From Hyalangium ruber (GTDB lineage: Bacteria > Myxococcota > Myxococcia > Myxococcales > Myxococcaceae), in assembly GCF_034259325.1 (NCBI RefSeq), contig NZ_JAXIVS010000011.1, forward strand, positions 124,001 through 188,000: DNA of 64,000 nucleotides. Reading direction: 5' to 3'. The position numbers were made by a program, and so were the translations under genes. The notes beneath the pieces are model-generated. The model made no database searches. It was not told the origin of the DNA and saw only the letters and a program-made list of their open reading frames with translations. The number at the start of each line of letters is the position of its first letter. Position 1 is the first letter of the stretch. This document shows, piece by piece, positions 42,489 through 62,306 of the stretch.

Positions 42489-43640
42489 TCAGATCGAGAT
42501 CGTGAGTCGTGCTCCCGGAACCATGACCTTCACGACCACGACCTCCGCGAGCCGCTGGCTCAGGTTCACCCGATATGCGCCCTGGAAGCCACCCTGCTGG
42601 AGGCTCTCGAGGACATGCTGGTAGTCGCGGGTCAGATCGTGGCTCGAGCGTTCCTCCAGCTCATCCCAGCTCGTGTCAGGAGTGAGCTGCGAGAAGAACG
42701 AGTACAGCCGCTGGTGGCTGCCGCCACCTTGGTAGGCCGCCTCCGAGAGGTCGTCCCGGGAGCCGTGGATGAAGGTGAGCCGCGATTGGGCGGCCTCGGT
42801 GATCGCCCGTGTCGCGGCCACCGAGGGACTCAGGTGGGCGCCGTAGCCCAGGTTCACCGTCGAGGCGTGGCTGAAGGGCGAGGAGTCCAGCAGGACAGCC
42901 ATGAACGTATGCGTGGGCAGCTCGCTCGGTGCTCGCAGCAGCACGAGCCGGAGCTCGGAGCGCTCGACCTGCTCCCGGAGCACGCCGACCACTTCGTCGG
43001 TGACGGTGTCGAGGTCGATGACATCGCACCGGCCCAGGTGGATCCGATTGCCTTCGGAGAGGCGTGAGAGGGTGTCTCGCTCGATCAACTCATACAGGCT
43101 GTGGAGCGTCGCCTCGGTGAGGTGGTTGCCGCTGGCCAGACCGTTGAACGAGTACCGGTGATGCTGGTGCCGGTAGTAGTAAGCGGTGAACGCTGGGAGC
43201 CAGAGCGCCTCTCCGGAGTGCAGGTCCTCGCCCTGGACCCAGTCGAGCACCTGGTCCTCCGTGAAGTACGCCGAGGACCAGAAGCCCTCGAGGCTCTCCG
43301 GTGAGACGATACGGGCGCCATCTCGGCGTAACTGCCCAAGCGAGGCGCGATGAAAGGGCACCGCAGGGTTCTCGGCGTGCCAGTGCTCGATCGACTCCAT
43401 CAGCGCCGACACCTGGGCATCGACGTGGCGAAGCCCCTTGCCGTTGGAGGTCTGCAGCACGCGCCCTTGCGGACGGATCGCGACGTAGACCGGGATGCCG
43501 GTGCAGTCGAGTCCGGTGATGTCCGCGCAGCGGGTGATGCCGAAGGAGCGCAGATGCGGTCGGATTCGCTCGAGGGTCGTCTCTGGAGAGACGACCCGAT
43601 GCGTCCCGCGCATGTAGGCCTTGGGAAGTTCGAGACTCAT
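42489..43640 (-). CDS. YcaO-domain protein (peptide backbone-activating enzyme)
   Basis: 383 residues. The ATP-binding motif TSNGKG (64-69) and the SALMESIEHWHAE helix (78-90) with the Mg-binding Glu residues are intact, as is the HSLYELIERDTLSRL segment. YcaO enzymes use ATP to phosphorylate a backbone amide, giving azolines (Cys/Ser/Thr) or, with TfuA, thioamides. The C-terminus (KVMVPGARLTISI) lacks the PxPxP end of azoline-forming YcaOs. Its ATG overlaps the TfuA stop by four bases, and the pair is diagnostic of thioamidation systems. Confidence 0.92.
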   Translation of the reverse strand: MSLELPKAYMRGTHRVVSPETTLERIRPHLRSFGITRCADITGLDCTGIPVYVAIRPQGRVLQTSNGKGLRHVDAQVSALMESIEHWHAENPAVPFHRASLGQLRRDGARIVSPESLEGFWSSAYFTEDQVLDWVQGEDLHSGEALWLPAFTAYYYRHQHHRYSFNGLASGNHLTEATLHSLYELIERDTLSRLSEGNRIHLGRCDVIDLDTVTDEVVGVLREQVERSELRLVLLRAPSELPTHTFMAVLLDSSPFSHASTVNLGYGAHLSPSVAATRAITEAAQSRLTFIHGSRDDLSEAAYQGGGSHQRLYSFFSQLTPDTSWDELEERSSHDLTRDYQHVLESLQQGGFQGAYRVNLSQRLAEVVVVKVMVPGARLTISI

Positions 43641-45067
43641 GACGGCTGCCCAGGGGTCAGGAGGCTGGCGGTGCGTCCCGACAGCTGGAGCTCCTGGACG
43701 ACGGCGACCTCGAGATCATGCGCGCGTCCGAACCGGGTAGGGCCCTGCGCGATGACCCACTCCGCGAGTGCCCGCTCCTCGAGGACGCGGAGGAGTCGCT
43801 CCGGTGCGAGCTCGAGTGAGCGGGCGGCATCCACCTGGCTGGTGGCGGAGCCCAGCCCCCACGATGCGAAGAGGGCGTCGCGTTCAGCGGGGGGACACCG
43901 CACGCCGCTCTCGCGAGCCCAGGCCACGATGAAAGCCCGCTCCTCGGCCTCGGAGGTCCGCGGGGGCCGCTCTCGGGACAGGTGCGCTTCGAGTCGGGCC
44001 ACGGCATCTCGATCCCATTCCAGTCCGAATGCTCCGGGGCCCGACTCGAGCAGCCAGGACAGCAGGGCGCGCTCGGCGAGCAAGGCCGTGTGCTCCTGGC
44101 GCGTCAACCCGTGGGCACGTGCCCAGGTCCCCGCGTCCACGACGTCGTTCGCGCGGGCCCAGTGGCTCTCGAAGGCCCGCACGGAGGTCTCTGGGCAGGT
44201 CAGCTCGCGCTGGCGCGCCCAGTCGAGGATGAACCACTGGCGCAACACGCGCTGGCTCGTGGCGTCCCAGAGTTCCTGGGACTGGCGCGCCGCGCGGAAG
44301 AGGGTGTGCCCCGCGACGGGCGTGGTGCCACTTCCCAGCTGACGGAAGCCCAGGCTCACGCGCTGGAACTCCTCGCGCCACAGATCCACCCGGTCACTCG
44401 AACCAGACCGGCCCACCCGCTCCCGCTGGGCGCAGTGCCGCAGGACGCCACTCGCGTCGCGAGACTTGAGGTCCACGGCGTTCTCGCGCAGGTACTGCTT
44501 CCACTCCGCCACTCGCGGCTTGGGCCAGTCGCGCAGCAAGGGGCACTCGAGAAGGCGGCGGTACGAACGCTCGGGGTAGTACGTCTCTCGCATGAAGGTC
44601 AGGAGTCGCTCCGACTCATCTTCCGAGAGCTTTCCGTCGGCCACCGCCTGGCGCAGGGTGTAGCGGATGTTGACGAGCGGCTCCGACAGCGCGCGATACC
44701 CCATGTCCTCGGGAGCGTGGCGCAGCGCCACTTCATCGTCCGCGTTGATGAGACCATCGCGGTACCACTCGAAGATGGTGCCGTACCCCACCATCCCGAA
44801 GGAGTGGAGCTCCGCGGCGCGGAGCGCACCCATGCTGCTGGCTCCGAATACCTCGATGCCCTCGTCCAGCGCGGCGAGCAGCTCCCGCTGCCAGATGGAG
44901 GGCCCGCTGTGGAAGATTCCATCGATCAGGACGATGGTCTTCACCCCGGAGGCCAGCACCCGGTAGATGTCGCCCTTGCGCGCCGGCGGGCGGTACTCGG
45001 CGTCCAGGATGGCTCGGGCCCGTTCCTGGCTGAGGGACGGGCCTAGGAAGACGATGACCGATGCCAC
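43637..45067 (-). CDS. TfuA-like protein with two C-terminal helical repeats
   Basis: 476 residues. The N-terminal about 215 residues match the TfuA core: VIVFLGPSLSQERARAIL, IVLIDGIFHSGPSIWQRELL, GASSMGALRAAELHSFGMVG. TfuA partners YcaO in peptide backbone thioamidation. The C-terminal half carries two similar segments, about 278-363 and 378-463, each with WAR..., CP..., ERAL..W and FG landmarks, an internal duplication of near 100-residue period. TfuA cores are usually near 220 residues, so this extension is unusual. Coupled to YcaO; four bases upstream of it lies the first JmjC gene. Confidence 0.9.
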   Translation of the reverse strand: MASVIVFLGPSLSQERARAILDAEYRPPARKGDIYRVLASGVKTIVLIDGIFHSGPSIWQRELLAALDEGIEVFGASSMGALRAAELHSFGMVGYGTIFEWYRDGLINADDEVALRHAPEDMGYRALSEPLVNIRYTLRQAVADGKLSEDESERLLTFMRETYYPERSYRRLLECPLLRDWPKPRVAEWKQYLRENAVDLKSRDASGVLRHCAQRERVGRSGSSDRVDLWREEFQRVSLGFRQLGSGTTPVAGHTLFRAARQSQELWDATSQRVLRQWFILDWARQRELTCPETSVRAFESHWARANDVVDAGTWARAHGLTRQEHTALLAERALLSWLLESGPGAFGLEWDRDAVARLEAHLSRERPPRTSEAEERAFIVAWARESGVRCPPAERDALFASWGLGSATSQVDAARSLELAPERLLRVLEERALAEWVIAQGPTRFGRAHDLEVAVVQELQLSGRTASLLTPGQPS

Positions 45068-45071: not shown

Positions 45072-46421
45072 CTAGCGCGCCTCGGACCGGACGCGCTTCT
45101 TCGCGGACGGCTTCGTGGCCCGCTTCACGGGCAGCTTCGTGGATGAGCGGGCTGGCCGCGCGGCGGCCTCTTCGACCTGGATGGCACGCATCGAGTAGAG
45201 CCGCCCGAGCATCGACCGGATGAACGCGGCATCCAGCGCGTACTGCTTCTTGCGGACCGTCGCCTCGCCGCTGTGCTTCTTGATCAGTTCACGCACCTTG
45301 TACTTCTGGCCGCTGTTCAGATCGCGGAACAGCTCGACGAGCTTGGGGTGCGCCTGGACGGCGAACGAGTGCCCATAGATGGCGCCAAGCAGCTGCCCCT
45401 CCTGCACCTGGAACAGGACCGGCTCGGAAGGATCGACCCAGACCGTGTCGGTGTCCTTGAGCTCACGCGGCTCCTGCTTTGGCGCGGCCTCGAGCCCCAG
45501 GCCGCTCAAGCGGGCGAGCCACTTGCGAGAGACCGCCAGACGCAGGTCCGTGCCAATGCTCTCGAAGGCCTCCAGCATGGTGTTGAGGTTCTCGGGCATC
45601 TCCGGCGAGCGGCGTGCCTTGTCCGGCTGGAAGGAGGGGATCGTCTGGCTCTTCTCGACCTTGCTGAGCCGCGAGTCGATCAGCTTCGTGGCGTCTCGCT
45701 GGATCGACTCGATCCAGTAGTGCTTGTGGACCGCCATCAGGATGCTGAGCTGGAGGGCGGGCTCGGAGCCGGCCTCCGAGACGTGGTAGTAGCCCTGGGG
45801 GATGTAGAGAACGTCGCCCGGCTCGAGATCGAACGTCTGGGCCTCCCCGAGGATGGACTCGTAGCCGGCATGCCCGACCAGATGGGGGTGGCGCTGCAGC
45901 ACTTCGGGCGCCCACATCCGGAAGCGCTTGCGCCCATCGAGCATCACCAGGAGGTTGTCGATGGGATCCTCATGGACACCGAATCCCGTGACCTCGGTGC
46001 GGCTGTACCAGATGACCGCGTCGGTGCTCTCCGGCACGCCGATCTCCGAGTAGAGCCCCTTGACGAAGCCGCGCGCCTGTCGCCACAGCCCGATGTCCCA
46101 GGTATGTGCCTTGTTCAGCACGACCGCGAAGCCACGCCCGTTGAGCGCCTCCGTCACACGGCGCGTGTAGTCCTCGATCGACGCATCATTGGAGGGCAGG
46201 AAGCCCCGGGCATCGAACTCCCGGTAGGACTTGTCGACGAAGAAGCGCAGGGCGACCTGCTCGCCAGGCTTGTTGGCGGACTTGCTCGCCGCCGAGAGGA
46301 TCCGGAACGCGTCATGCTTGGCCAGGAACTCTGTCGGGAAGAGCTTGCGGAAGTGTACGGGCTGCTTCCGCCAGTAGCGAGCAACGAAGTCAGGCCAGTT
46401 CAGCTGAAACGGCGCCACCAT
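45072..46421 (-). CDS. JmjC/cupin-like iron oxygenase (1)
   Basis: 449 residues. The cupin_4/JmjC core has the 2-His-1-carboxylate set H150-E-D152 (GFGVHEDPIDN) and H213 (IPQGYYHVSE), with the LDGRKRFRMW strand between. Family members hydroxylate protein or peptide side chains with 2-oxoglutarate and oxygen. A winged-helix-like C-terminus ends in a basic tail (RATKPSAKKRVRSEAR). ATG at 46421 follows CAGGAG; the frame is open 41 codons upstream. Paralogous to the next gene. Confidence 0.87.
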   Translation of the reverse strand: MVAPFQLNWPDFVARYWRKQPVHFRKLFPTEFLAKHDAFRILSAASKSANKPGEQVALRFFVDKSYREFDARGFLPSNDASIEDYTRRVTEALNGRGFAVVLNKAHTWDIGLWRQARGFVKGLYSEIGVPESTDAVIWYSRTEVTGFGVHEDPIDNLLVMLDGRKRFRMWAPEVLQRHPHLVGHAGYESILGEAQTFDLEPGDVLYIPQGYYHVSEAGSEPALQLSILMAVHKHYWIESIQRDATKLIDSRLSKVEKSQTIPSFQPDKARRSPEMPENLNTMLEAFESIGTDLRLAVSRKWLARLSGLGLEAAPKQEPRELKDTDTVWVDPSEPVLFQVQEGQLLGAIYGHSFAVQAHPKLVELFRDLNSGQKYKVRELIKKHSGEATVRKKQYALDAAFIRSMLGRLYSMRAIQVEEAAARPARSSTKLPVKRATKPSAKKRVRSEAR

Positions 46422-46435: not shown

Positions 46436-47713
46436 TCAATCCACGGCCCCTGGGAGCAGGGACCCCAATTCCAATGCACGCACGCGATGGAGCTGCGTGA
46501 GCAGTTGATGGGCCTCGGCGCGGTCGGAGGCGGACCAGTGCCACGTCGCCGTCTGCTCATCGAGCAGCGCACCGACGCGCCACCGCTGGCCACTGTTGAG
46601 GCGCTCCACCAGCGCCTGGACACCCTCGCTCGCGCGTGTCACGAACGAGTGCCCCCGCGCGGCCCCCACCAGCGAGTCGCCCAGGGCGTATAGCAGGATG
46701 GGGTTGTCGGAGTCGCCCTGGAGCGTATCGTCGTCGGTAATGGCGCGCGTATCCCGCTCCTGCGGGGGACCAAGCCCGAGGCTCGTCAGCCGCGCCAGCC
46801 AGCCCCGGGCCACCTGGAGCCTCATGCTGGAGCCGATGCCCGAGAAGGCATGGGTCAGCTGCTCGAGGTGCTCGGGTAGGGGAGCTGTCACCTCACCCCC
46901 TTGGGGGGGGATCAGCGGAATCGTCATGCTCGCGGGCACCTCGCGGAGCTGGGGCTCCTGCGCTCTCCACATCGAGCCCCGGAACCAGTCGAGCCAGAGC
47001 ATTCGCTCGGAGGTGATGGCGAGGCTGAACTGGAAGCACGGTTGGTTGTCGCCCTCCACGACGTGGTAGTAGCCCTGGGGGATGTAGAGCATGTCCCCGG
47101 GCTCCAGATCGACGATGAGACTCTGGTCTCGGATTCCCAGATAGGTGGTGTCGTTCACCACCTCGGGGTGGGCGCGGATGATGTCCGTGGGCCACAGCAG
47201 GAACCGCTTGCGGCCCGTGAGCACGAAGATGAGGTGATCGAACGGATCATTGTGGACACCGAAGCCACTGACGCCTGCCCGGCTCAGCCAGAAGACCAGG
47301 TCCGTGTTCTCCGGGATCCCGACACCTTCGTAGAGCTCTTGCAGGAAGGTACGGCACCGCAGCCACAACGAGTCATTCCAGGCCTCGGCATGGTTGAGCG
47401 CCAGCACGAAGTTCTGCCCGGGCAGCTGGGTGGCCAGCCGCTGCGTATACGCCTCGAGGGACTTGTCCGCGAGCGGCAGAAAGGGCCTGGGGTCCGACTC
47501 CTTGAAGCCCTTGCCCGTGAAGAAGTGGAGCGGGACGCGGCTGCCTGGCTTCTCCGCCGTTGCCCGACTCGCCGTGGCGAAGATCTCGAAGCCCTCATCG
47601 GGCGAAAGAAGCCCCGGCCGGAACGCCGCTGGGAAATGCACTGGAGCCTTGCGCCAGTACCGCGCAATGAAGTTCTTCCAGCCGATCGGCGGCGCTGACG
47701 TCATGGTGCTCAT
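46436..47713 (-). CDS. JmjC/cupin-like iron oxygenase (2)
   Basis: 425 residues, paralogue of the preceding JmjC protein and separated by 14 bases. Metal ligands H154-N-D156 (GFGVHNDPFDH) and H217 (IPQGYYHVVEG) are intact. The start is ambiguous between ATG 47713 and 47704; both lack a strong ribosome site. Probably the first gene of the six-gene minus-strand operon (JmjC2, JmjC1, TfuA, YcaO, glycosyltransferase, ATP-grasp). Likely hydroxylates the precursor peptide (inference). Confidence 0.85.
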   Translation of the reverse strand: MSTMTSAPPIGWKNFIARYWRKAPVHFPAAFRPGLLSPDEGFEIFATASRATAEKPGSRVPLHFFTGKGFKESDPRPFLPLADKSLEAYTQRLATQLPGQNFVLALNHAEAWNDSLWLRCRTFLQELYEGVGIPENTDLVFWLSRAGVSGFGVHNDPFDHLIFVLTGRKRFLLWPTDIIRAHPEVVNDTTYLGIRDQSLIVDLEPGDMLYIPQGYYHVVEGDNQPCFQFSLAITSERMLWLDWFRGSMWRAQEPQLREVPASMTIPLIPPQGGEVTAPLPEHLEQLTHAFSGIGSSMRLQVARGWLARLTSLGLGPPQERDTRAITDDDTLQGDSDNPILLYALGDSLVGAARGHSFVTRASEGVQALVERLNSGQRWRVGALLDEQTATWHWSASDRAEAHQLLTQLHRVRALELGSLLPGAVD

Positions 47714-47893: not shown

Positions 47894-49291
47894 ATGGTGC
47901 TCCCTCCAAAACTCTTCGTGGAGCTGGCGGCCATGCCGCGGCTCGAGGCGTGGTTTCTGGGCGGCGTGCTCCACAGGCTGCTGCAGGCGAAGTTCGAGCC
48001 GCGGGGGTGCCGCGCGGTGCTGGAGCGCATGAATGGCCGGGTGACGCGTCCCGTGCTTCGCCCCCAGTGCGTGGATGACGGAGGGATGGTCATCGATGAC
48101 AGCGCGCTGTTCCCCGAGCCCGGTCCCTGGCAATTGGACTTCCAGGCGCCCGAAGCAAAGTGGAACTCCGAGCTGCCCGCGGACGTGCTCCCGGCCATTG
48201 CCCACTTCCTTCGCCTGGCCACCCACACGGAGGATGTCCAGGGCCTGCGCGAGGTGTGGCCCTTCCAGGAGGAGGACGCGCTCGAACTGCTTCGTCCCAC
48301 GCCTCCTCCCGAGGTGCGCTGGCCCGTGCCGGACAAGCCCGGCATCTATCGTCGCGAGCACGCGAGCCTGCTGCTCCGATCGCGCACGACGAGCATTCTG
48401 GTGGATCCGGTCAGCCTGGATCGCCGCATGCCCTACATGAGCGAGGCGCCGGTCCACCTTCCTTCCCAGGGCGTGGACGCCGTGGTCATCACCCACGGCC
48501 ACGGAGACCACTGGCACCTTCCCTCGCTGCTGACCCATCTGGCCACGCCAGACGTTCCGGTGCTGGTGCCGCGCATGCCCCGCATCAGCCTCCTCTCCCC
48601 CCAGCATTTCGAGGCGTCCCTCAGGGCGTGTGGCCAGAACGTGCTGGCGCCCGCCTGGGGAGAGACGGTGAAGGTGGGGGACATCGAGATCGACATCCTG
48701 CCCTTCTATGGCGAGCAGCCCGCGCGAGAGGGGCCTGCCCTGAAGCCGGGCTTGCGCAACTGGGGCAACTGCTACCGCTTCACCACGGAGGACTTCTCGT
48801 GTGTGTTGTTGGTGGATGGCGGAACCGACCCCGCGGGGAGCATGGAGCACGTGCTGGCCAGTTCCTTCGCGCGGCGTGGCCCCGTCGATGTGCTCCTAGC
48901 GTGCCAGCGAGAGTTCCAGTCCCCCTTCTTCGGAGGACTGAGTGACATCTGGGCGGCGCTGCCATGGGCGCAGCTGTGCGGCCTCCACGAGGACTACCAG
49001 CGGGGGCAGTTGAAGAACACGACAGCCGGGACCCAGGGGATCGCCGAGGCCTGTGGCGCGGCCGGGTCCCGCTACTTTCTCGCCTATGCCAACGGTTTCC
49101 AGGGGGTGGGCAAGCCGATCACGGACATCGGCTGGGGCAGTGGTGAGCCCTCTGAAGCCGCCTGCAACGGACTGCTGCGCGAGCAGCTGAAGCGCCGAAA
49201 CATCACCACCGAGGTCCCCGAGTGGAGCCCCGGGGACGCGGCGTGTTTCTCGCGAGGGCAGCTGTCGTTGGAGCGGCCCTCTCTTCGCTGA
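47894..49291 (+). CDS. MBL-fold metallohydrolase in the peptide cluster (1)
   Basis: 465 residues. An about 150-residue N-terminal helical region is followed by a metallo-beta-lactamase fold with intact metal motif THGHGDHWH (200-208) and the VVITHGHGDH strand. The layout REHASLLL...ILVDP, PVLVPR, GETVKVGDIEIDILPF matches the MBL protein at 59409, so the two are paralogues. Such proteins recur in peptide clusters but their reaction is rarely known. Divergent from JmjC2. ATG at 47894. Confidence 0.83.
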   Translation: MVLPPKLFVELAAMPRLEAWFLGGVLHRLLQAKFEPRGCRAVLERMNGRVTRPVLRPQCVDDGGMVIDDSALFPEPGPWQLDFQAPEAKWNSELPADVLPAIAHFLRLATHTEDVQGLREVWPFQEEDALELLRPTPPPEVRWPVPDKPGIYRREHASLLLRSRTTSILVDPVSLDRRMPYMSEAPVHLPSQGVDAVVITHGHGDHWHLPSLLTHLATPDVPVLVPRMPRISLLSPQHFEASLRACGQNVLAPAWGETVKVGDIEIDILPFYGEQPAREGPALKPGLRNWGNCYRFTTEDFSCVLLVDGGTDPAGSMEHVLASSFARRGPVDVLLACQREFQSPFFGGLSDIWAALPWAQLCGLHEDYQRGQLKNTTAGTQGIAEACGAAGSRYFLAYANGFQGVGKPITDIGWGSGEPSEAACNGLLREQLKRRNITTEVPEWSPGDAACFSRGQLSLERPSLR

Positions 49292-49297: not shown

Positions 49298-50419
49298 CTA
49301 CCGACGGGCCTTCTCCGCGCCGCGCGTCTGCTCGACCCACTGGCGCCAGGCCGCCGCATCTTCGCCGAGATCCTTCCCCGCCAGGATGGTGAGCACCTTG
49401 CGAGCGGGCTCGGCGTCGGTTTTCTGCTGCATGCCCGCCATCTCCACGAGCATCGCGCCCGCCTTGTCGAGGATCTGCTGGCGGTGAGCGGCACCCTCGG
49501 TCTCCACGATACGAACGAGTGCCCAGGCCGCCTTGTTGCGGTCCGTCACGAGCGGATACCAGAGCGCTTCCAGGACGGGCTCGAGGGGGATGATGACGCG
49601 CTTCTGGCCCGCCTGCGCCGTACCGAGCAGGCGAAGCGCCTCGTTGCGCACGCCCTCGAAGGAATCGCGCACCGACGGGAGGATGATCCGCACCAGCTGC
49701 TCGCGCGAGTGGAGGTAGGGCAGGAGCATGAGCGCGGTCATCCGCTTGGAGCTGTCACGGTCCTCGCGCAGCACGCGCGTGAGCGCCTCGGCGTTGCGAG
49801 GCACTCCGTCGATGAAGCGCTGTTCCAGGGGCACGAGTTCGGAGTGATCAAAGCCGCCGTAACAGTTGATGGCACGGCAGCTGCCCTTGCTGTATTCGGG
49901 AACCGCGCCTTCACTGCTCAGTTTCCAGTAGGTCTTCTGATAGTCCCCCCATGCGGCGAGGAGGCCCTCTGGATCCGGGATGTCGCCCTGCGGCTCGGGG
50001 GAGAAGCGCATGCGCCACTCGTCTCCGGGATCGACCAGATCCACGGTCACACGGAAAGTATGGGTCGGCGGGTAGGCGACGAGTGAGTACCGGCAGAAAG
50101 GGAAGTTGTAGGCGGCCAGGAGGCGGGGCTTGCTCTCGATGAGGTACGGGGTGAATTCCCCCTTCTCGAGATCGAAGCGAGTGCCCGGGGCGGGCAGACC
50201 GATGAGCTCGAGCAGCTTCTCCTTGGGCACCTTGTGCGAGCCGAACACCTCCACACCCTCGAACACATAGGTGGACGTGGGAGGGACTGGCGCAGCGCTC
50301 TGTGCGGAGGGGGCCGCCTCGGGCGCGGCAGCGGTCTGGGCAGAGGGGGCTCCGACGGTCTGGCGAACGGGAGCGGAGCAGGCGGTGAGAAGGACGAGTG
50401 CGAGGACGAGGTATTTCAT
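49298..50419 (-). CDS. lipoprotein with HEAT-like repeats
   Basis: 373 residues. Signal peptide with lipobox LLTAC (VLALVLLTACS) and an Ala/Pro-rich linker. The C-terminal half (about 215-350) has helical repeats of HEAT type (ALTRVLREDRDSSKRMTALM, VRNEALRLLGTAQAGQ). A middle beta region (YSLVAYPPTHTFRVTVDLVD) is unassigned. Located beside the precursor gene and convergent with the MBL gene. A role in immunity or peptide handling is possible but unsupported. Confidence 0.75.
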   Translation of the reverse strand: MKYLVLALVLLTACSAPVRQTVGAPSAQTAAAPEAAPSAQSAAPVPPTSTYVFEGVEVFGSHKVPKEKLLELIGLPAPGTRFDLEKGEFTPYLIESKPRLLAAYNFPFCRYSLVAYPPTHTFRVTVDLVDPGDEWRMRFSPEPQGDIPDPEGLLAAWGDYQKTYWKLSSEGAVPEYSKGSCRAINCYGGFDHSELVPLEQRFIDGVPRNAEALTRVLREDRDSSKRMTALMLLPYLHSREQLVRIILPSVRDSFEGVRNEALRLLGTAQAGQKRVIIPLEPVLEALWYPLVTDRNKAAWALVRIVETEGAAHRQQILDKAGAMLVEMAGMQQKTDAEPARKVLTILAGKDLGEDAAAWRQWVEQTRGAEKARR

Positions 50420-50564: not shown

Positions 50565-50608
50565 CCGCGCCTCGTCAATTCAAGTGCCGGTGCACGGCGT
50601 GTCGGTTC

Positions 50609-50660
50609 GAATTGGCATTGCGCGGCATCTTCATCTGAATTGACGTTGCGCAGCACCTTC
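50609..50660 (+). repeat. imperfect 24-base direct repeat upstream of the precursor gene
   Basis: Copies at 50609-50632 and 50637-50660, 28-base period, identical at 20 of 24 positions. All four differences are transitions. Both begin GAATTG, share TTGCGC and end CTTC. Two tandem sites this close suggest a dimeric regulator or a leader RNA element. Confidence 0.65.
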
Positions 50661-50683
50661 GAAGACGAATAGGGAGAGACATC

Positions 50684-50851
50684 ATGGCGAACAAGTCCGA
50701 GCAGAAGAAGGTCACCACCAAGAACAACGACAAGGCCAAGAAGCAGCCCCTCGCCCTCGAGTTCATCGAGGACACGGACCTGGCCAACGTCTCCGGCGGC
50801 GCCATCCCCATCTCCAGCAACACTGGCGGCGACGTCGTTTGGGGCTACTAA
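50684..50851 (+). CDS. RiPP precursor peptide with double-glycine leader
   Basis: A 55-residue peptide behind a strong ribosome site (GGGAGAGACATC). Leader residues 1-39 are Lys/Asp/Asn-rich and end DLANVSGG, matching the double-glycine consensus at -12 (I), -8 (D for E), -7 (L), -4 (V), -2 and -1 (GG). Predicted core is residues 40-55, AIPISSNTGGDVVWGY. It has no Cys, so lanthionine is impossible. Modifiable residues are Ser44, Ser45, Thr47, Asp50, Pro42, Trp53 and Tyr55. The gene sits between the two enzyme blocks and ends in a strong terminator. It is too short for usual gene callers. Confidence 0.9.
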   Translation: MANKSEQKKVTTKNNDKAKKQPLALEFIEDTDLANVSGGAIPISSNTGGDVVWGY

Positions 50852-50936: not shown

Positions 50937-50967
50937 GCTGGCCTCGGAACCGGGGCCAGCGTTTTTT
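50937..50967 (+). terminator. Rho-independent terminator of the precursor gene
   Basis: Arms GCTGGCC and GGCCAGC extended by a T-G and C-G pairs to about ten pairs, followed by GTTTTTT. It separates the precursor from the JmjC3 operon, so the peptide is probably made from its own abundant transcript. Confidence 0.8.
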
Positions 50968-51057: not shown

Positions 51058-52335
51058 ATGAACCGTTCCGCGCCTTCGCGCGCATTCTGGCGCCGTTTCA
51101 GCGCTCGTCATTGGCTCGAGTCACCGCTGCACCAGCAGCAGCCTCGGGTTCCGTTTCAGTTGACCCCCGACGAGCTCTTCGCGGCGCTGGTCGCGGCGAG
51201 TGAGGCCTCTCAGGGGGGCTCTGCCTCGGGTCTGGTGCGGTTCTACATCGGCGATGCGCTCGTGCCGGACACCTCCTACCTGCCGGCTCGTACCGATGGT
51301 TCGCTCGACGCCTACGTCGAGCGTCTGGAGCGCCTTCTGCAAGGGCGCAAGTTCGGGCTCATCGTGAACGCGATCCAGGGGCACAGCTTCGCGCTCTGGT
51401 CCCGCCTTCGTGAGTTCCTGCACGGCTTCTATCAAGCCACCGGTGTTCCGCCCTACGTGGCGGAGGCGGGGATCTTCTTCGGGAACTACGAGTCCACGGC
51501 GTTCGGCGTCCATCAGGACCAGGTCGACGTGATGATGTTCGTGCTGCGAGGGCGCAAGACCATGCGCTTCTGGGAGCCTACGGCGCTTGAGCTCCCCGAG
51601 GTCGTGCGCCACCGACACGCGTACCAGCCACTCCTGTCACGGTCGACCAGCGCGCGCGCGGAAGCCGGTGACTTCGTGTACTGGCCAGCGGGCCACTGGC
51701 ACGTCGGAGAGTCCGAAGGCCTCTCGCTGACACTGAACGTCGCACTGGGGACCCGTGGCGGAACGGCGGCGAACCCCACTCCCATGATGTCCCCCGCCGA
51801 GGTCGTTGCCTCCGCTGTTCGTGGCGTGCTGAGCGCCCGGATGCCGCCCTCGAGCGCTGTCCAGCAGCGAGGCAGCGAACTCGCCCTTGCTGGGAGTAAG
51901 CCCGTGCCCCTCGCGAAGTCGCTCCGGGCCGCGGTCAAGATGCTGCGTGAGTCGATGCGTGATGGAGAGTTGGAGTGCAGGCTGCTCGCCGCGGATCTGA
52001 GCCGGCAGACGGGTTTTGGCTTCCAGCCGATTCCGTCGCTGCTACCGTCCCGGACGATTTCGCACGAGGACGTCGTTCGTGGGGATGAGAGGTATCCCAT
52101 CCTGTGGGCGCGCGCGGGCGACAAGCTCGTGCTCTCGGCCAACGGACGGGCGCTGACGACTTCGTTCCAGCCGGTGGTGGTGCGCGTGCTCAAGCGATTG
52201 AACCAGGGCCTTCCGGTTCCGGTCTCCGCCTTCGTGCGCCAGCGGCGTCCGGTGTCGGAAGCGGTGATCCCACTGCTCGAGCACCTGTATCGCTGTCGGG
52301 CCATCTCGCTTGCCGAGCCCTCCTTGCGAGAGTGA
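51058..52335 (+). CDS. JmjC/cupin-like iron oxygenase (3)
   Basis: 425 residues, third JmjC paralogue in the cluster. Ligands are H152-Q-D154 (AFGVHQDQVDV) and H215 (AGHWHVGES); the second half is winged-helix-like and more divergent from the others. It starts a plus-strand run with the P4H-like gene, ATP-grasp gene and LanB gene. Likely hydroxylates the core or leader-bound precursor (inference). ATG at 51058 lies 90 bases past the precursor terminator. Confidence 0.86.
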   Translation: MNRSAPSRAFWRRFSARHWLESPLHQQQPRVPFQLTPDELFAALVAASEASQGGSASGLVRFYIGDALVPDTSYLPARTDGSLDAYVERLERLLQGRKFGLIVNAIQGHSFALWSRLREFLHGFYQATGVPPYVAEAGIFFGNYESTAFGVHQDQVDVMMFVLRGRKTMRFWEPTALELPEVVRHRHAYQPLLSRSTSARAEAGDFVYWPAGHWHVGESEGLSLTLNVALGTRGGTAANPTPMMSPAEVVASAVRGVLSARMPPSSAVQQRGSELALAGSKPVPLAKSLRAAVKMLRESMRDGELECRLLAADLSRQTGFGFQPIPSLLPSRTISHEDVVRGDERYPILWARAGDKLVLSANGRALTTSFQPVVVRVLKRLNQGLPVPVSAFVRQRRPVSEAVIPLLEHLYRCRAISLAEPSLRE

Positions 52336-52365
52336 GTCGGGGCCCTCTACGATCCCTTGCAGGCA

Positions 52366-53601
52366 ATGGAAGCTCAAACCCTGATACTCAATCCAAACAT
52401 GCGGGTCGCGGTGAGACGCGACGGGGAGCAGTGGCAGTCGATCTTTCTCGCCTCGCCCATCAAAGGGCGGGACCTGCGCATCAAGGTCGTCAACAGCGAC
52501 AACCCCTCGCTGTTCGAGGCCGTGCGGGAAATCGTCCAGTCGGGGGAGATCGACGCGGACTGCATCGCGCGTCATGAGGCGGATCTCACCCGCCTGGGGG
52601 TGCTGATCGGCGCCGCCGAGGTCTCCCGCCCAGTGGTCTTCCATTGCTGGTTGACCGAACCCGAAAGCGGCGAGCGCGCGGGCCACGCCTCGCACGAGGA
52701 CGCGGACCTGGGAGATCTCGTCGGCGCACCCGTCCTCGTGTACCAGCCGCCCGGTACAGCGCTGCCCGACGTCCTGCGAGAGCGGGTGTTGCTCGAGAAG
52801 CAGTTCGCGTGGGGGGCTCCGGAGAGCTGGTTCGCGCCAGGCTGTGGACGACTCTGGGTGGAGGATCCCGGCACGCGCATCCTGGCGGTCTTCAGTGTTC
52901 CAGCGCACCTCGAGTCGATCGTCGCATCGCTCCGGCCCGATGAGCCTCCGCCCTCCTCGCTGACGGCCGAGACGAGCCGGCTCTTGAGGCGCGCGAACGT
53001 CCTGGTCACGAGGGGCTTCGCGGCACACCGCGCGGAGGAGTGGGAGCGGACGTGTGATGAGGCGCGGCGACGCTTCGCCTCGGATGGCTTCGTGAACGTC
53101 GAGGGGCTGCTGCACCCCCTGCAGCTCGTGGCGCTGCGCCACTACCTTCGAGAGTTCGTCGCGGAGGGACACGCCGAGCTGACGAAGGAAGAGACGGTGT
53201 GCTACGGCGCCCACAACGAGGGCGTCTGCCGGTACCTGCACCATCAGCTCTCGGGGCTGGTGGGCAGGATCGTCGGCAGGGAAATCAAGCCGTCATACAC
53301 GTACTTCCGTACCTATCGGCCTGGCGCGGTGCTCGAGAGACACCTCGATCGGGAGCCCTCGCACTACAGCATCTCGTTCCTGGTCGATTACACGCCCGAG
53401 AGTGCGGATCGCTCGCCCTGGCCGCTTTGTCTGGAGCCAGGCTCGGGCGGCGTGGTGCCTGTATTCCAGCGGCGCGGGGACGGCGTCTTCTTCGAGGGCA
53501 TCAAGGTTCCACACTTCCGGGATCGGCTGGCCGCTGGCTGCACCTCGACATCGGTCTTTTTCGAGTACGTGCCGAAGGAGTACAGCGGCCCCCTGCGTTG
53601 A
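52366..53601 (+). CDS. P4H-like 2OG-Fe(II) oxygenase with uncharacterised N-terminal half
   Basis: 411 residues. The C-terminal about 190 residues resemble prolyl-4-hydroxylase-type oxygenases: H326-L-D328 (VLERHLDREP), the SFLVDYTPE strand, and H383 (IKVPHFRDR). The usual Arg/Lys about ten residues after the last His, which binds 2-oxoglutarate, looks like Thr393 by eye. The N-terminal half is not recognised. ATG at 52366; a TTG lies three codons earlier. Follows JmjC3 by 30 bases. Confidence 0.78.
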   Translation: MEAQTLILNPNMRVAVRRDGEQWQSIFLASPIKGRDLRIKVVNSDNPSLFEAVREIVQSGEIDADCIARHEADLTRLGVLIGAAEVSRPVVFHCWLTEPESGERAGHASHEDADLGDLVGAPVLVYQPPGTALPDVLRERVLLEKQFAWGAPESWFAPGCGRLWVEDPGTRILAVFSVPAHLESIVASLRPDEPPPSSLTAETSRLLRRANVLVTRGFAAHRAEEWERTCDEARRRFASDGFVNVEGLLHPLQLVALRHYLREFVAEGHAELTKEETVCYGAHNEGVCRYLHHQLSGLVGRIVGREIKPSYTYFRTYRPGAVLERHLDREPSHYSISFLVDYTPESADRSPWPLCLEPGSGGVVPVFQRRGDGVFFEGIKVPHFRDRLAAGCTSTSVFFEYVPKEYSGPLR

Positions 53602-53643: not shown

Positions 53644-54690
53644 ATGATCCTGATCGTCACCAGCAGAGGCGATGCACACGCGCTGGCCGCGGAGCGTGCC
53701 TTCGAGAAGAAGGGCGTGGCCTTCCGCACGTGGTACATCGACGATCATCCCCCGACGCTCGAGATGGCGTTCCGGCCCGGAGGAGCCCGGCCGCGCGGCA
53801 CGCTGGGGAGGGGAGGGGAGACGATCGCCCTCGATGACATCCGGGCGGTGTGGCATCGAAAGCCCAAGCCCATGCAATACCCGGCGGGGCTCGACCCCCA
53901 GCTCGTTCTGGAGAGCCAACAAGAGACCGGAGAGGGGCTCAGGGCGCTCTTCCTTCACCTGGAAGATCGGTTCTGGGTCAACCCCCCCTGGCACGAGCGA
54001 GAGCTGGCGCTCTCCAAGGTCCACCAGCTCGAAGTGGCCTCCGCGCTCGGGTTCCGCGTGCCCCGAACCTTGCTTACCAACGACCCGCAGGAGCTTCAGG
54101 CGTTCTACCGGAGCTGTGGCGGAGAGGTCATCTACAAGCTGGTCTCGGGGGTCGCCATTCCCGGTGTTCTCCAGAATGGGCGGGTCCTGTACACGACGAA
54201 GCTGACGCCGCGACACCTGGCCGAGGTCGAGCGGCTGGTGGCTGCTCCCGGGTTGTTCCAGGAGTACATCCCGAAGCGCTCCGAGCTTCGGGTCAATGTC
54301 ATCGGCCGGAAGGTCTTCGCGACGCTCGTCGACTCTCAGCAGGTCGAGGAGAGCCGAGTGGACTGGAGGCGAGGGCAGGATCGTGGGCTCGAGTTCAGGG
54401 CGCACGAACTCCCTCCAGCTATTGAGGAGCGGTGCCGTGCCTTCACACGGAGCCTGGGGCTCGCCTTCGGGGCGCTCGATCTCATTCTCACCCCGGATGG
54501 GGACTATGTCCTCCTCGAGATCAATCCGGCGGGACAGTGGCTGTGGATCGAGCGGGAGACCCGGCAGCCGTTGCTGGACAACCTCACGGAGATGCTCCTC
54601 CAGGGGACGACGGACTACGTCGACTCGATGCCCGAGCGGCGCGTAACACCCGATGACACCCTCCGATACCTCAGCGAACTCGAGCGATGA
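53644..54690 (+). CDS. MvdD-like ATP-grasp peptide ligase
   Basis: 348 residues. ATP-grasp fold with a candidate ATP-binding lysine in GGEVIYKLVSG (K165), metal-binding FGALDLI (D279) and LLEINPAGQW (E292, N294). These match microviridin/graspetide ligases (MvdC, MvdD), which make ester or amide links from Asp/Glu carboxylates to Ser/Thr/Lys. The core has one Asp (Asp50), with Ser44, Ser45 and Thr47 as possible partners. Stop overlaps the LanB start by four bases. Confidence 0.88.
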   Translation: MILIVTSRGDAHALAAERAFEKKGVAFRTWYIDDHPPTLEMAFRPGGARPRGTLGRGGETIALDDIRAVWHRKPKPMQYPAGLDPQLVLESQQETGEGLRALFLHLEDRFWVNPPWHERELALSKVHQLEVASALGFRVPRTLLTNDPQELQAFYRSCGGEVIYKLVSGVAIPGVLQNGRVLYTTKLTPRHLAEVERLVAAPGLFQEYIPKRSELRVNVIGRKVFATLVDSQQVEESRVDWRRGQDRGLEFRAHELPPAIEERCRAFTRSLGLAFGALDLILTPDGDYVLLEINPAGQWLWIERETRQPLLDNLTEMLLQGTTDYVDSMPERRVTPDDTLRYLSELER

Positions 54691-57600
54691 GCCATTCAGA
54701 CAGCGACAAGCCGCCCTCGGGAGCCGCGACGCCAGGGGCCCTGGTCTCGGAGTTCTTCGTCTTCCGTACGCCGGTCCTGGCCTTCGATGAGTTCCAGCGC
54801 TGGGGCGAAGGACTGGAAGCGCCGAGCACGACGGGAGAGCTGACCCGGCTGGAGTTCGCGCTCGAAGCGGACCGGCAGCGTCTGCGCTCCCGGCTGCGGC
54901 AGCTCCTTGCTCGCCCCGAGCTGGATGAGGCCATCTTCGTGGCCTCGCCCTCCCTGTATGCGCAGCTCGGTGACTGGAGGGACAACCCAGGCAGTGAGCG
55001 CGGGACCAAGGTCGAACGCGCCCTGGTCCGATACTTCTCCCGGATGATGGGGAGGCCTACGCCCTTCGGACTCTTCGCCGGAATGTCGGTGGGCGTCATC
55101 GGCGCGGAGACACGACTCTCCATGGTTGGGAGGGATGGCTATCGTCGCAAGGTCCGGCTGGACACGGACCATGCGATGGCCTTGGCGGACACTCTGGCCC
55201 AGGACGCTCGGCTCCAGGCGGTTTTGCGGTACCACCCGAACACCACGGTCTCCTCCCACTCCGCCGACCGGCTGCAGTACATCGAGGCGCGTTGCACGGG
55301 TGTCGCGTGGACGCACCGCGAGGTGGGCATCCGCTCCACGCCTCCGTTGCGGACCGTTCTGGCGCGAGCGGCCCGCGGTGCGAGCCGAGCAGCGCTGGCT
55401 GCCGCGCTCGAGCAGGAACATGAGGTAGAGCAGGGTGAGGCGGAGGCGTATGTCGACGAGCTGATCCGCCGGCAGGTACTCCAGTCGGAGCTTGCGCTCT
55501 CAGCGACCGGGACCGAGCCACTCGACCACCTCATTGGCCGCCTCGAGGCGTTGTCGAAAGAACATGAGGCCTTGCCGCGGCTGGTGCGCGTGCGCCAGAT
55601 GCTCTCGGAGCTGAATGCCTCCGGGCCGGGCGCTTCTTCTGAGCGGTATCAGGCCATCGCGGCGTCGCTCCTGGAGCTGCCTGGCGACCCCGGGCAGGCT
55701 CAGACGCTGCAAGTGGATATGCACAAGCCGGGAGCGGGAGCGACGCTGGGCCGGCAGGTGCTCGATGAGATGAGCCGCGGTGTCCACCTGCTGTACCGCA
55801 TCTCCCGCTCAGCGCAGACGGATGGGCTTGGAGGCCTTCGGGCGGAGTTCGTGCGTCGGTACGGTGATCGGGCTGTTCCCCTCATGGAGGCGCTCGACGA
55901 GGACGGCGGGTTCGGCATCGATTCGGCTCAGCATCTGCGTCATGACGCGGCTCAGCTGCTCGCCGACCTTCCCTTCCCGGAGTCCAAGCCGGATGAGCTC
56001 GTGCCGGCCAACCAGCGAGAAGCCGTGCTCCTGCGCAAGTTCGAGAGTGCGCGGGTCAGTGGGGCGCGGCAGATCGAGTTCACGGAAGCGGACCTTGCTG
56101 CGCTCGAGACTCCTGGTCGGCTGCCGCTGCCTGATGCGTTCTCGGTTCATGCCGCGCTCGCGGCGCGCTCCCAGGAGGCGCTGGCGCAAGGGGACTTCCA
56201 GCTCCTCATCGAGAGCGTCTACGGCCCCTCCGGAGCGACCCTGTTGGGACGCTTCTGCCACGCGGACCCGGAGCTGACCCAGCACGTCGAGCGCCACCTT
56301 CGGTCGGAGGAGGCGCTACGGCCGGACGCGGTGTTCGCCGAGATTGCCTTCCTCGGAGATAGCCGCGTCGGCAACGTCGTGCTGCGGCCGACGCTGCGCT
56401 CGCACGAGATTCCCTACCTCTCCAGGTCCGGCGTACCGGAGGAGCGGCAGATCTCGGTCGGTGAGCTGTGGCTGTCGGTGGAGCAGGGGCGGTTCGTGCT
56501 GCGCTCGGAGCGACTCGGCCGCGAGGTCATTCCGCGACTGACGTGCGCGCACAACTTCCGCGACCAGAGGCTCTTCCGTCTCTACAGGTTCCTAGGGATG
56601 CTTCAGGAGCAGGCACAGGCGTCCAACCTGCGGTGGAACTGGGGAGCGCTCCGGCACGCGGCGTTCTTGCCCCGGGTGGTGTCGGGCCGCCTCGTGCTGT
56701 CGCGCGCGCGCTGGATTCTACAGCCAGAGGAGTGGCGCCCTATCTTCGAAGCGCGAGGGGCGGTGCGGTACGAGCGCCTGCAGCGTCTAAGGGCGGGGTT
56801 GGGGATGCCGCGCTACGTCACTTTCTCGGAGGGCACCGACTTCTTCCCGGTCGACTTGGACAACGCCCTCTGCGTCGAGAATGCCGTTCAGCTCCTGGGG
56901 GATGTCCAGCGCGCGGCGTTCTTCGAGATGTTTCCCGACCCTGAACACCTCTGCGTGGTGGGGCCGGAGGGCAGGTTCGTCCACGAGCTTCTCGTGCCCT
57001 TCGTCCGGCAGCGGTCTCCCAGCGTCCCCCTTGCCCCTCGCCCTTCAGGCGCGCGGGTGTCGCCCTCCTCACGTACTTTCGCACCGGGCTCGGAGTGGCT
57101 CTTCGCGAAGCTGTACACAGGACGCTCGAGCGCGGATGACGTGCTCCGGAAGGTGGTGGCCCCGATCGCGAGGGGTGCGCTGGCCTCGGGGGCGGCCGAC
57201 CAATGGTTCTTCATCCGGTACGCGGATCCGGACTGGCACGTCCGGCTGCGGTTGCACGGCTCGCCGCGCCGACTCGCGTTCGAGGTACTCCCAGCCCTTC
57301 ACGATGCGCTCGCGCCATTGATCGAGGCGGGCACCCTCCACCGTGTCCAGCTCGACACGTATGAGCGCGAAGTCGAGCGGTACGGTGGCCTCGAGGGGAC
57401 GCTCCTTGCCGAGTCCCTGTTCCATGCGGACAGCGAGGCGGTCGTGGCCGTTCTAGAGGCGATGCCGGGCGAGCTGGGGCTCCGCGTGCGGTGGCAGCTC
57501 GCGCTCTATGGCATCCATCGGCTCTTGCTCGATCTCGAACTCGACTCCCAAGAGCGGCATGCCGTGGTCCGGACCGCGCGCGAGCAATTGGGAGCGCTCT

Positions 57601-57950
57601 TCAAGCTACCCCCTGAGTTCGAGCACCGACTGGGAATGCGATACCGGCGTGAGCGCCGCACCATCGAGGAGCTGCTGGCGCCCTCTGGGGGGCCGCCCGC
57701 CTTGCTCCGTGGCGGGATGGAGTTCCTCGACCGGCGTGGCGCCCAAATCGCGCCCATCGTCTCCCGGCTACGGGAACGCGCCCGCTCGGGACATCTCTCC
57801 GTGTCCCTCGAGGAGCTCACCAGCAGCTACATGCACATGTTCACCAACCGGCTCCTGCGGGCCCACGCCAGGGAGCAGGAGCTGGTGCTCTACGACTTCC
57901 TGAGTCGCTTCTACGACTCCCAGTCTGCTCGTTCGAGGCCGAGGGGGTAG
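54687..57950 (+). CDS. full-length LanB-type dehydratase
   Basis: 1087 residues (NisB 993). The N-terminal glutamylation domain carries the family motif RYFSRMMGRPTPFGLFAG (115-132). The C-terminal SpaB_C/thiopeptide-type elimination domain starts near 800, with FFIRYADPDWHVRLRL, whose His (about 851) fits the elimination His of NisB. LanB uses glutamyl-tRNA to glutamylate Ser/Thr, then eliminates to Dha/Dhb. The intact elimination domain argues against a PEARL aminoacyl-ligase. No LanC is seen in the window. Coupled to the ATP-grasp gene. Confidence 0.9.
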   Translation: MSHSDSDKPPSGAATPGALVSEFFVFRTPVLAFDEFQRWGEGLEAPSTTGELTRLEFALEADRQRLRSRLRQLLARPELDEAIFVASPSLYAQLGDWRDNPGSERGTKVERALVRYFSRMMGRPTPFGLFAGMSVGVIGAETRLSMVGRDGYRRKVRLDTDHAMALADTLAQDARLQAVLRYHPNTTVSSHSADRLQYIEARCTGVAWTHREVGIRSTPPLRTVLARAARGASRAALAAALEQEHEVEQGEAEAYVDELIRRQVLQSELALSATGTEPLDHLIGRLEALSKEHEALPRLVRVRQMLSELNASGPGASSERYQAIAASLLELPGDPGQAQTLQVDMHKPGAGATLGRQVLDEMSRGVHLLYRISRSAQTDGLGGLRAEFVRRYGDRAVPLMEALDEDGGFGIDSAQHLRHDAAQLLADLPFPESKPDELVPANQREAVLLRKFESARVSGARQIEFTEADLAALETPGRLPLPDAFSVHAALAARSQEALAQGDFQLLIESVYGPSGATLLGRFCHADPELTQHVERHLRSEEALRPDAVFAEIAFLGDSRVGNVVLRPTLRSHEIPYLSRSGVPEERQISVGELWLSVEQGRFVLRSERLGREVIPRLTCAHNFRDQRLFRLYRFLGMLQEQAQASNLRWNWGALRHAAFLPRVVSGRLVLSRARWILQPEEWRPIFEARGAVRYERLQRLRAGLGMPRYVTFSEGTDFFPVDLDNALCVENAVQLLGDVQRAAFFEMFPDPEHLCVVGPEGRFVHELLVPFVRQRSPSVPLAPRPSGARVSPSSRTFAPGSEWLFAKLYTGRSSADDVLRKVVAPIARGALASGAADQWFFIRYADPDWHVRLRLHGSPRRLAFEVLPALHDALAPLIEAGTLHRVQLDTYEREVERYGGLEGTLLAESLFHADSEAVVAVLEAMPGELGLRVRWQLALYGIHRLLLDLELDSQERHAVVRTAREQLGALFKLPPEFEHRLGMRYRRERRTIEELLAPSGGPPALLRGGMEFLDRRGAQIAPIVSRLRERARSGHLSVSLEELTSSYMHMFTNRLLRAHAREQELVLYDFLSRFYDSQSARSRPRG

Positions 57951-57975: not shown

Positions 57976-59277
57976 CTACTGGAACACGGGAGCGAGCAGT
58001 CCGATGCGCGGCGAGAGCAGCTGCGAGAGCAGCGTCATCACCTCTTCGGAGGAGTAGCGATCGGCGAATGCCGCCGCGATCTTCCCCGCCGTGCGGGTTC
58101 CATCACACGCTTCGAGCACCGGCTCTACATCCGCGGGAAGGACCCAGGTCTCATTGCGCGTCGGGGTCAGGCGGCGTAGCAGCGGCGGTTCGACGAGCCT
58201 GTCGCGGGAGCGTTGGTACGGGCGGCTCTCATGCGTGGCGACGACGCGCTCGTCCTGGATCTCATAGACGGTGTGCCGCGTGCGGTGCATGAGCCGCATG
58301 CCTCGCAGCTCCGCCTTGGAGTAGGGCTTGGGCGCGGGTCTGTCCGCATGCTCGACATAGAAGCCGAAGAACGGCGCGCGCTCGGCCGCTAGCAGGTTGA
58401 CGACTCGCTGCTGCTCCCGCGCATCGAGCTTGCGCCACGCGGCGAGGAGCGCGGGGTCGTCGACGTAGCGTGCCAGGTCCCACACGTGCGGCGTCGGCCA
58501 GGACAGGCGCAGCCCCGCATCGGTCACCAGCGCGTACAGCGAGTCGATGTCGTAGGCGATCTCGTAGGGTTGCAGCAGCGTGTCGGCGAACGTGGGGATG
58601 TCATCCTCGACATTGCCAAGCATCCGCAGCGTCTGGGCCATCCCTCCGCACTTGTCGGAGGCGCGTACCGCGCGCAGCAGCTGCATGGCCAGCTCGTGCT
58701 TGCGCTTCAGGTTGCGCGGTCCGCCCGCCAGTGTCTCGACCGCGCGCTGGAACTGCCGGAAGAAATGCCGGTGCTGCTCGTTGTACGCCATGATGAGGCC
58801 CGCGCCGCCGCTCCGGAGCGCCTGCCGTAGCAACCGCATCCCCTTCAGCGGGTCCTCCAGGACGGGGAGCACGCCGGTACAGAAGATGATGTCGAAGTCG
58901 TCGCGGAACGTCGACTCCAGCAGGTTCTGGTGCTGGAACTCGACGTTCTTGATGCCCAGCTGCCCCGCCAGGCGTTTGGACACCTCCAGTGAGCGCGGCG
59001 ACAGATCTGTCGCGAGGATCGTCGCCTCGGGGAAGCGCAGCGCCGTGAGGATCGACTGCTCGGTCCCACAGCCGGCCACCCAGATGCGTGAGTCGGGACG
59101 CAGCGCATCCTCGCGGCGACGCCCGAGCTGGTAGTTCATCCGATTGAGATGGAAGTGGACCGGCTCGACCCGGTGCAGGGCCGTGACTCGAGGGAATGGG
59201 TATTGGGTGTAGAGCTCACCGATGAGGGAGGTAATCGTCTGGGGCTCTGCTGATTGCCGACGGCGTGCCGCACGCAT
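57976..59277 (-). CDS. SAM-dependent methyltransferase fused to a PqqD-like domain
   Basis: 433 residues. Class I methyltransferase (about 60-200): IWVAGCGTEQSIL motif I, LATDLSPRSLEVS, and IIFCTGVLPVLEDP. The C-terminal about 80 residues match PqqD/RRE-type peptide-recognition domains (WVLPADVEPVLEACDGTRTA, AAAFADRYSSEEVMTLLSQL), so it may bind the leader itself. Convergent with LanB and divergent from the MBL-2 gene, whose open frame overlaps its 5' end. Confidence 0.85.
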   Translation of the reverse strand: MRAARRRQSAEPQTITSLIGELYTQYPFPRVTALHRVEPVHFHLNRMNYQLGRRREDALRPDSRIWVAGCGTEQSILTALRFPEATILATDLSPRSLEVSKRLAGQLGIKNVEFQHQNLLESTFRDDFDIIFCTGVLPVLEDPLKGMRLLRQALRSGGAGLIMAYNEQHRHFFRQFQRAVETLAGGPRNLKRKHELAMQLLRAVRASDKCGGMAQTLRMLGNVEDDIPTFADTLLQPYEIAYDIDSLYALVTDAGLRLSWPTPHVWDLARYVDDPALLAAWRKLDAREQQRVVNLLAAERAPFFGFYVEHADRPAPKPYSKAELRGMRLMHRTRHTVYEIQDERVVATHESRPYQRSRDRLVEPPLLRRLTPTRNETWVLPADVEPVLEACDGTRTAGKIAAAFADRYSSEEVMTLLSQLLSPRIGLLAPVFQ

Positions 59278-59408
59278 GGCGGCGCATATTGCATCCGCGT
59301 ATCAGGAGTGGCAACTGGAGAGCCCTGCCCCCTTGTCGAAGGCGAATCGGGCGGGCTGGACGATTGATGAACCGCACGCAACGAGAAGATCGCAGACGGA
59401 GACGCGGC

Positions 59409-62225: not shown

Positions 62226-62306
62226 GAACGCAACTCCCGCGCCTCGAGGTCCCAGCGAAGTCGACACGATGCAACGGGCCAGACTCAGGGCATGAGGGGG
62301 TTCATC

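Follow-up and report, generated by a model that had tools for sequence, protein, structure and literature searches.

A candidate RiPP precursor gene in a lineage-specific island of Hyalangium ruber encoding an unusual mix of peptide-modifying enzymes

We analysed a window of 64,000 nucleotides from the myxobacterial soil bacterium Hyalangium ruber (contig NZ_JAXIVS010000011.1, positions 124,001 to 188,000). In six relatives from five genera (L206-L211), pyrH, frr and a response-regulator gene (the last seen in all but L211) are followed directly by a 110-aa gene and its conserved neighbours. Here, 29.9 kb (36696 to ~66611) separates the frr/response-regulator flank from the 110-aa gene, and none of the six relatives compared has this insert. 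Since synteny with the six relatives defines the borders of the island, they are given without prior assumption; with 49-92% identity between the genes on either side and their counterparts in the relatives, the insert lies in genuine chromosome of the family. The G+C content of the insert is 66.9%, versus 69.0% and 68.5% in the two flanks. The island contains the following features:

36696-64000, on to ~66611 (L150:2711) just past the window end, no strand: lineage-specific insert; the six relatives lack it at this site, where the flanking genes are shared
36696-37559, plus: methyltransferase-like protein (motif read by eye)
37569-38645, plus: PS_pyruv_trans (PF04230), polysaccharide pyruvyl transferase family (family search)
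38642-38932, plus: ThiS-type sulfur carrier with Gly-Gly C-terminal end (PF02597, E 2e-17)
38973-39764, plus: SAM methyltransferase (family search)
39771-40736, minus: degenerate MvdD-type ATP-grasp without the DWR motif and E..N metal ligands (family search, residue comparison)
40733-42442, minus: glycosyltransferase group 1 (family search)
42489-43640, minus: YcaO, closest solved relative the archaeal MJ1094, without C-terminal PxPxP (family and solved-relative search)
43637-45067, minus: TfuA with a C-terminal extension (NCBIfam ThioGly_TfuA_rel)
45072-46421, minus: JmjC_2/ROX-type oxygenase, HxD...H present (family search, residues)
46436-47713, minus: JmjC_2/ROX-type oxygenase, HxD...H present (family search, residues)
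47894-49291, plus: metallo-beta-lactamase-fold protein, like the di-iron hydroxylase CmlA (E 8e-6 to CmlA)
49298-50419, minus: HEAT-repeat lipoprotein, with 38% homologues in myxobacterial ATP-grasp/PPIase graspetide operons (family search, locus comparison)
50609-50660, no strand: two 24-bp direct repeats (50609-50632 and 50637-50660), 20/24 identical, 28-bp period, just 5' of the ribosome site
50671-50679, plus: ribosome binding site AGGGAGAGA, 4 nt 5' of the ATG (duplex energy)
50684-50851, plus: candidate precursor peptide gene, 55 aa, leader residues 1-39 and core 40-55 (coding score, sole credible precursor ORF of the insert)
50937-50967, plus: intrinsic terminator, 10-pair stem, 4-nt loop, GTTTTTT tail (terminator scan)
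51058-52335, plus: JmjC_2/ROX-type oxygenase, HxD...H present, first gene 3' of the precursor (family search, residues)
52357-53601, plus: putative 2OG-Fe(II) oxygenase of prolyl-4-hydroxylase (P4H) fold (H329, D331 and H386 invariant in five homologues; model)
53644-54690, plus: graspetide-type ATP-grasp ligase, DWR and E/N metal ligands intact, closest solved relatives MdnB and MdnC (family, solved relatives, residues)
54687-57950, plus: full-length LanB (residues aligned with NisB)
57976-59277, minus: methyltransferase with a weak C-terminal PqqD-like match, E 0.03 (family search)
59265-60950, plus: second metallo-beta-lactamase-fold (MBL) protein (family and solved-relative search)
60969-62309, minus: radical SAM/SPASM protein (family search)
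62397-63470, plus: HlyD-type periplasmic adaptor (family search)
64407-66623 (L150:507-2723), beyond the window end, no strand given: C39-peptidase ABC exporter, PF03412 and ABC (family search)

The ORF at 50684-50851 begins with an ATG at 50684, and its stop codon ends at 50851; the product is MANKSEQKKVTTKNNDKAKKQPLALEFIEDTDLANVSGG followed by AIPISSNTGGDVVWGY. The 39-residue leader ends in DLANVSGG, and the 16-residue core, AIPISSNTGGDVVWGY, lacks Cys; it has a single Pro (Pro42), presents Ser44, Ser45 and Thr47 ahead of a single Asp50, and also contains Gly and Asn. The nearest in-frame stop codon 5' of the ATG is a TGA at 50636-50638 (plus strand), and no other ATG, GTG or TTG lies between it and 50684, leaving a sole start. 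With codon log-odds trained on the long genes of the window, the ORF scored 25.2 (GC3 0.96), whereas no other intergenic ORF of 40-80 aa within the window scored above 1.7. When the intergenic sequence was simulated 300 times with a first-order Markov model, a null that keeps first-order base composition only, the best score per set had a median of 0.6, a 95th percentile of 5.1 and a maximum of 10.0. Given this gap to both the other ORFs and the simulations, the ORF is very probably coding and not a chance frame. When all small ORFs of the insert were scored, only this one (26.7 in the insert-wide run), besides ThiS, had a clear coding score; the next best, at 7.0, overlaps a neighbouring gene. 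By this measure, the ORF is the only credible candidate precursor gene of the island.

The signals around the ORF are in keeping with a gene. The duplex of AGGGAGAGA with the anti-SD has an energy of -9.0 kcal/mol, which ranks 7th among the 51 called genes of the window and is equalled by 5.7% of random 20-mers. The terminator scan found 2 sites in the precursor region, versus 0.7 expected, and we therefore grade the terminator at 50937-50967 as a consensus match. An imperfect inverted copy of the 24-bp repeat lies at 50567-50593, and the repeats 5' of the precursor are a possible operator or regulator site. A search of Rfam around the precursor gene returned no match. The original prediction, made from the sequence alone, had placed at these coordinates a 55-residue ORF with a double-glycine leader, a Cys-free core and its own terminator, between two enzyme blocks. 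All of this agrees with our analysis. A C39-peptidase ABC exporter that matches such a leader is encoded where the insert ends. The ribosome site, which had been called strong, is good but not exceptional.

The island LanB has both PF04738 and PF14028 at full length, and its R855, E895, R898 and H1050 align with NisB R786, E823, R826 and H961, which we take to be the glutamate-elimination residues; the pairing of H1050 with H961 comes from a weak local alignment and is supported by MibB. The ATP-grasp protein at 53644-54690 keeps D240-W241-R242, E292 and N294. The DFR motif of graspetide synthetases, the counterpart of DWR, is described as critical (PMC13097080). Having lost the DWR motif and metal ligands, the second ATP-grasp is probably not catalytic, and it is perhaps a partner or a remnant of the intact copy. 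All three JmjC proteins of the island share H150, D152 and H213. There was no Pfam match for the 52357-53601 protein; its AlphaFold2 model (mean pLDDT 77) matches PHD2-type and Pseudomonas P4H prolyl hydroxylases with E values of ~3e-7 to 1e-6. A search of the tailoring enzymes of the island for RRE domains gave only the one weak PqqD match.

The YcaO protein matches MJ1094 with an E value of 2e-31, versus values near 1e-12 for LynD and others; it ends in VPGARLTISI, and its gene adjoins tfuA. The TfuA protein scores 232.6 bits, just under the 235.2 cut-off of the McrA-thioglycine TfuA family. In archaea, the sulfur donor for YcaO is thiocarboxylated ThiS, which TfuA hydrolyses (PMC8153245; also PMC8939145), and YcaO-TfuA action is described on Gly, in McrA (PMC5589413), and reported on Asn for another cluster (PMC13174530). 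Because YcaO is closest to MJ1094, TfuA lies near the thioglycine cut-off, ThiS ends in Gly-Gly and there is archaeal precedent, the YcaO-TfuA-ThiS set points to thioamidation rather than azoline formation.

These assignments bear on the enzyme chemistry expected by the original prediction. Dehydratase chemistry is backed by a LanB whose glutamate-elimination residues are conserved relative to NisB, and hydroxylase chemistry by the P4H-fold enzyme together with three JmjC proteins with HxD...H. ATP-grasp chemistry stands in part: a ligase of the MdnB/MdnC kind is present, but the fit to the core depends on a single Asp, and the other ATP-grasp has lost catalytic residues. The precursor and its GG leader had been predicted correctly, but the thioamidation set had been overlooked.

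The system draws on several RiPP classes. LanB has the glutamylation and elimination domains of class I lanthipeptide biosynthesis, and we found no match to LanC among the island genes scanned. Because the core has no Cys and there is no LanC, the system as predicted from its genes is not a lanthipeptide; nor, with a YcaO that lacks PxPxP and is partnered by TfuA, is it predicted to be an azoline-forming TOMM. The YcaO-TfuA pair characteristic of thioamidated RiPPs is present, with adjacent genes and ThiS in the same insert; no match to ThiF/E1 was found among the island genes scanned. Of the two ATP-grasps, 53644-54690 has the DFR/DWR motif and ATP/metal residues of a graspetide synthetase and 39771-40736 does not. 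The leader segment PLALEF fits the loose graspetide leader motif Phhx(1,2)h (PMC8939145), to which PFFARFL is an alternative. Where graspetide cores place donors before acids, this core has Ser44, Ser45 and Thr47 before one acid, Asp50, and contains no known core motif. The pairing of a GG-leader peptide (DLANVSGG) with a C39-ABC exporter (PF03412 and ABC) is also present.

We found no homologue of the precursor among 60 relatives or in plasmids. When the precursor and other GG-leader peptides were combined into a profile, the only match in the same genome was a peptide of graspetide type, encoded next to a different ATP-grasp gene. Among the family-search matches listed, no other site has LanB, TfuA and ATP-grasp within 15 kb. 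The nearest parallels are loci L132-L134 and the myxobacterial ATP-grasp loci with adjacent GG-leader peptides. L132-L134 combine LanB (35-37%), a P4H homologue (30-38%), a weakly ATP-grasp-like protein and a 55-aa precursor (L132:14774-14941, L133:5871-6038, L134:5737-5904) that resembles the island precursor in layout (K-rich start, Pro, EELAxVMG); these loci also encode two ~400-aa proteins without a Pfam match. Two of the myxobacterial ATP-grasp loci share the HEAT protein. At L123:10805-10972 and L125:9257-9436, in myxobacteria, GG-leader precursors ending GGTTSDTGDTDQ occur with a rosaritide-like ATP-grasp, PPIC and a HEAT-repeat protein.

Several island proteins were rejected as anchors for finding homologous clusters. 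LanBs with 44-50% identity occur in ordinary lanthipeptide-type loci without TfuA/YcaO, mostly with KKLSLxKETVR leaders, and a LanB-anchored search of 85k genomes for related loci found nothing. The P4H protein retrieved 46 loci from 85k genomes, chiefly in Acidobacteria and without the other island genes; the closest TfuA relatives among the matches listed (L118, L120) have no evident RiPP context; and the second MBL protein has only partial matches elsewhere in the family. We also rejected kinship of the leader to microviridin leaders, since its gapless score to PFFARLLEAQELEQAAGG, although above that of shuffles (P 0.001-0.006), is equalled by lanthipeptide and other GG leaders. A charge swap between a leader Arg and the E191/D192/N195 pocket, which contacts the leader in MdnC (PMC7823629), was likewise set aside, as the pocket is not conserved even in ligases beside PFFAR leaders.

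We propose, with a probability of about three in four, that the product of the ORF is the substrate of one RiPP island, the 29.9-kb insert, and that its core is heavily modified by the island enzymes, cut at the double glycine and exported. From the observed gene content, motifs and borders, we infer the following chemical steps, sites and order on the core. The 39-residue leader would recruit the island enzymes. YcaO-TfuA, fed by thiocarboxylated ThiS, would replace at least one backbone carbonyl oxygen with sulfur, for which Gly and Asn are the precedented sites. LanB would glutamylate Ser44, Ser45 and/or Thr47 and then eliminate to give dehydro-residues, which would stay open without ring closure, since there is neither a core Cys nor LanC. 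The intact ATP-grasp would ligate Asp50 to a surviving Ser or Thr, the P4H-type enzyme would hydroxylate Pro42, and the JmjC and CmlA-like enzymes would hydroxylate other side chains, which transferases would decorate. Finally, the C39 domain of the exporter would cut after Gly39 and the product would be secreted.

Alternatively, the ORF could be a real RiPP precursor on which only a subset of the island enzymes acts (for example LanB, P4H and JmjC), with YcaO-TfuA-ThiS modifying another target such as a cell protein. TfuA-YcaO pairs are common in the phylum (TfuA was matched in at least 108 of 195 genomes), the closest relatives of the pair in the phylum among the matches listed (L118, L120) have no evident precursor, and MdnB/C-like ATP-grasps without YcaO are also common; nevertheless, we consider this division of labour rather unlikely, with all of the enzyme sets within one sharply bordered insert and no second precursor. 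An unmodified double-glycine bacteriocin exported through C39 would account for the leader and the exporter, and bacteriocin models match weakly, below their cut-offs (E 0.01-0.02). However, these matches fall far under the curated cut-offs and span the GG leader, ~15 RiPP-type enzymes surround the gene, and a 16-residue core is short for class II, all of which makes a bacteriocin improbable. If the ORF had arisen by chance between genes, or were a decayed gene there, the lack of a precursor homologue would be expected, but a codon score of more than twice the maximum of 300 simulated replicates, and a start, ribosome site, GG motif and terminator that are all in order, leave very little room for that explanation.

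Some evidence weighs against the reading that we prefer, a precursor modified by the enzymes of its island. KKLSLxKETVR, an element found in class I lanthipeptide leaders of the same family, is missing from the leader, and one acidic residue in the core is few for a graspetide; island enzymes may also modify other peptides in trans, or in part be idle. The further suggestion that a single peptide combines a backbone thioamide, dehydroamino acids, an ATP-grasp side-chain link and several hydroxylations, and so constitutes a hybrid RiPP class, is tentative, at clearly below even odds.

Elements of the proposed pathway are familiar from known systems. Goadsporin and the dehydrazoles, in which a dehydratase is paired with azoles made from Ser, Thr or Cys, similarly join dehydroamino acids to YcaO backbone chemistry; in contrast, the island YcaO has TfuA as its partner and most resembles a thioamidating YcaO from archaea, and the island LanB is one full-length protein. 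Nocathioamides, named in PMC13174530 as chimeric lanthipeptides with thioamides, unite YcaO-TfuA thioamidation and lanthipeptide-type chemistry on one precursor, whereas the island has neither a core Cys nor LanC and adds a graspetide ligase, P4H and several JmjC enzymes. Thioamitides (thioviridamide, thiostreptamide S4) share YcaO-TfuA thioamidation and Ser/Thr dehydration, but dehydration in thiostreptamide S4 needs the phosphotransferase TsaC with TsaD (PMC8153245) rather than a tRNA-dependent LanB, and the island adds ATP-grasp and P4H. The var cluster, which makes the thiovarsolins, likewise combines YcaO and TfuA with an ATP-grasp ligase; its ATP-grasp is homologous to a pheganomycin-pathway protein and is not described as MvdD type, and no LanB is named among the genes sufficient for production (PMC6511847). 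With microviridins and other graspetides (MdnB/MdnC), the island shares an MvdD-type ATP-grasp with DWR and a GG leader; it differs in a core with one acidic residue and no TxKxPSD, and in the presence of LanB and YcaO-TfuA-ThiS. Rosaritide has a C39-type exporter and corallotide a 2OG oxygenase (both PMC13097080), as does the island, and myxobacterial ATP-grasp/PPIase loci have the HEAT protein in common with it. ATP-grasp occurs with YcaO-TfuA in branch 6 of PMC8939145, lanthipeptide dehydratases occur near graspetide synthetases at low frequency (PMC13097080), and RRE domains fused to JmjC (PF08007) proteins, as well as JmjC homologues in RiPP-like contexts, have been described (PMC12710340).

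Thus, every component is already known, and the chemistries are known in pairs at most; the combination is new in the searches made. We found no report of LanB, YcaO-TfuA-ThiS and an MvdD-type ligase together, an absence that is weak evidence given incomplete literature coverage. A precursor in a RiPP cluster is as such expected; what is surprising is the enzyme combination around one 16-residue core, since the island mixes enzymes that normally belong to three separate peptide-antibiotic families. If our reading is right, this one core would be the substrate of LanB, YcaO-TfuA-ThiS, a graspetide ligase and up to six putative oxygenases, and the order and compatibility of the combined chemistries would be directly testable on one short peptide. 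Hydroxylation (+15.995) and thioamidation (+15.977) differ by 0.018 Da, and so are easily misread in low-resolution screens. Whether a bacterial RiPP TfuA works like the archaeal protein, with thiocarboxylated ThiS, has been stated as an open question (PMC8153245), and the insert offers a bacterial RiPP island in which ThiS is encoded alongside TfuA and YcaO.

Other candidate precursor loci were noted in the course of these searches. An ordinary cluster of microviridin type (L198:11509-11694) is also present in the same genome, with a PFFARLLEAQELEQAAGG leader, a KYPSD-type core and two ATP-grasp genes. At L051:5888-11386, a LanB gene occurs with seven similar precursors that have LDGAVGG leaders and nearly Cys-free cores, and with a transporter-sized gene; no LanC-like gene was noticed there. 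In many myxobacteria, conserved ~60-aa peptides ending EKLDELEEIxFLLEEIESKIAPLALA (L142:18625-18825, L143:1073-1258, L144:18979-19155 and similar) adjoin a 332-338 aa protein near JmjC genes, and these peptides look like another precursor family.
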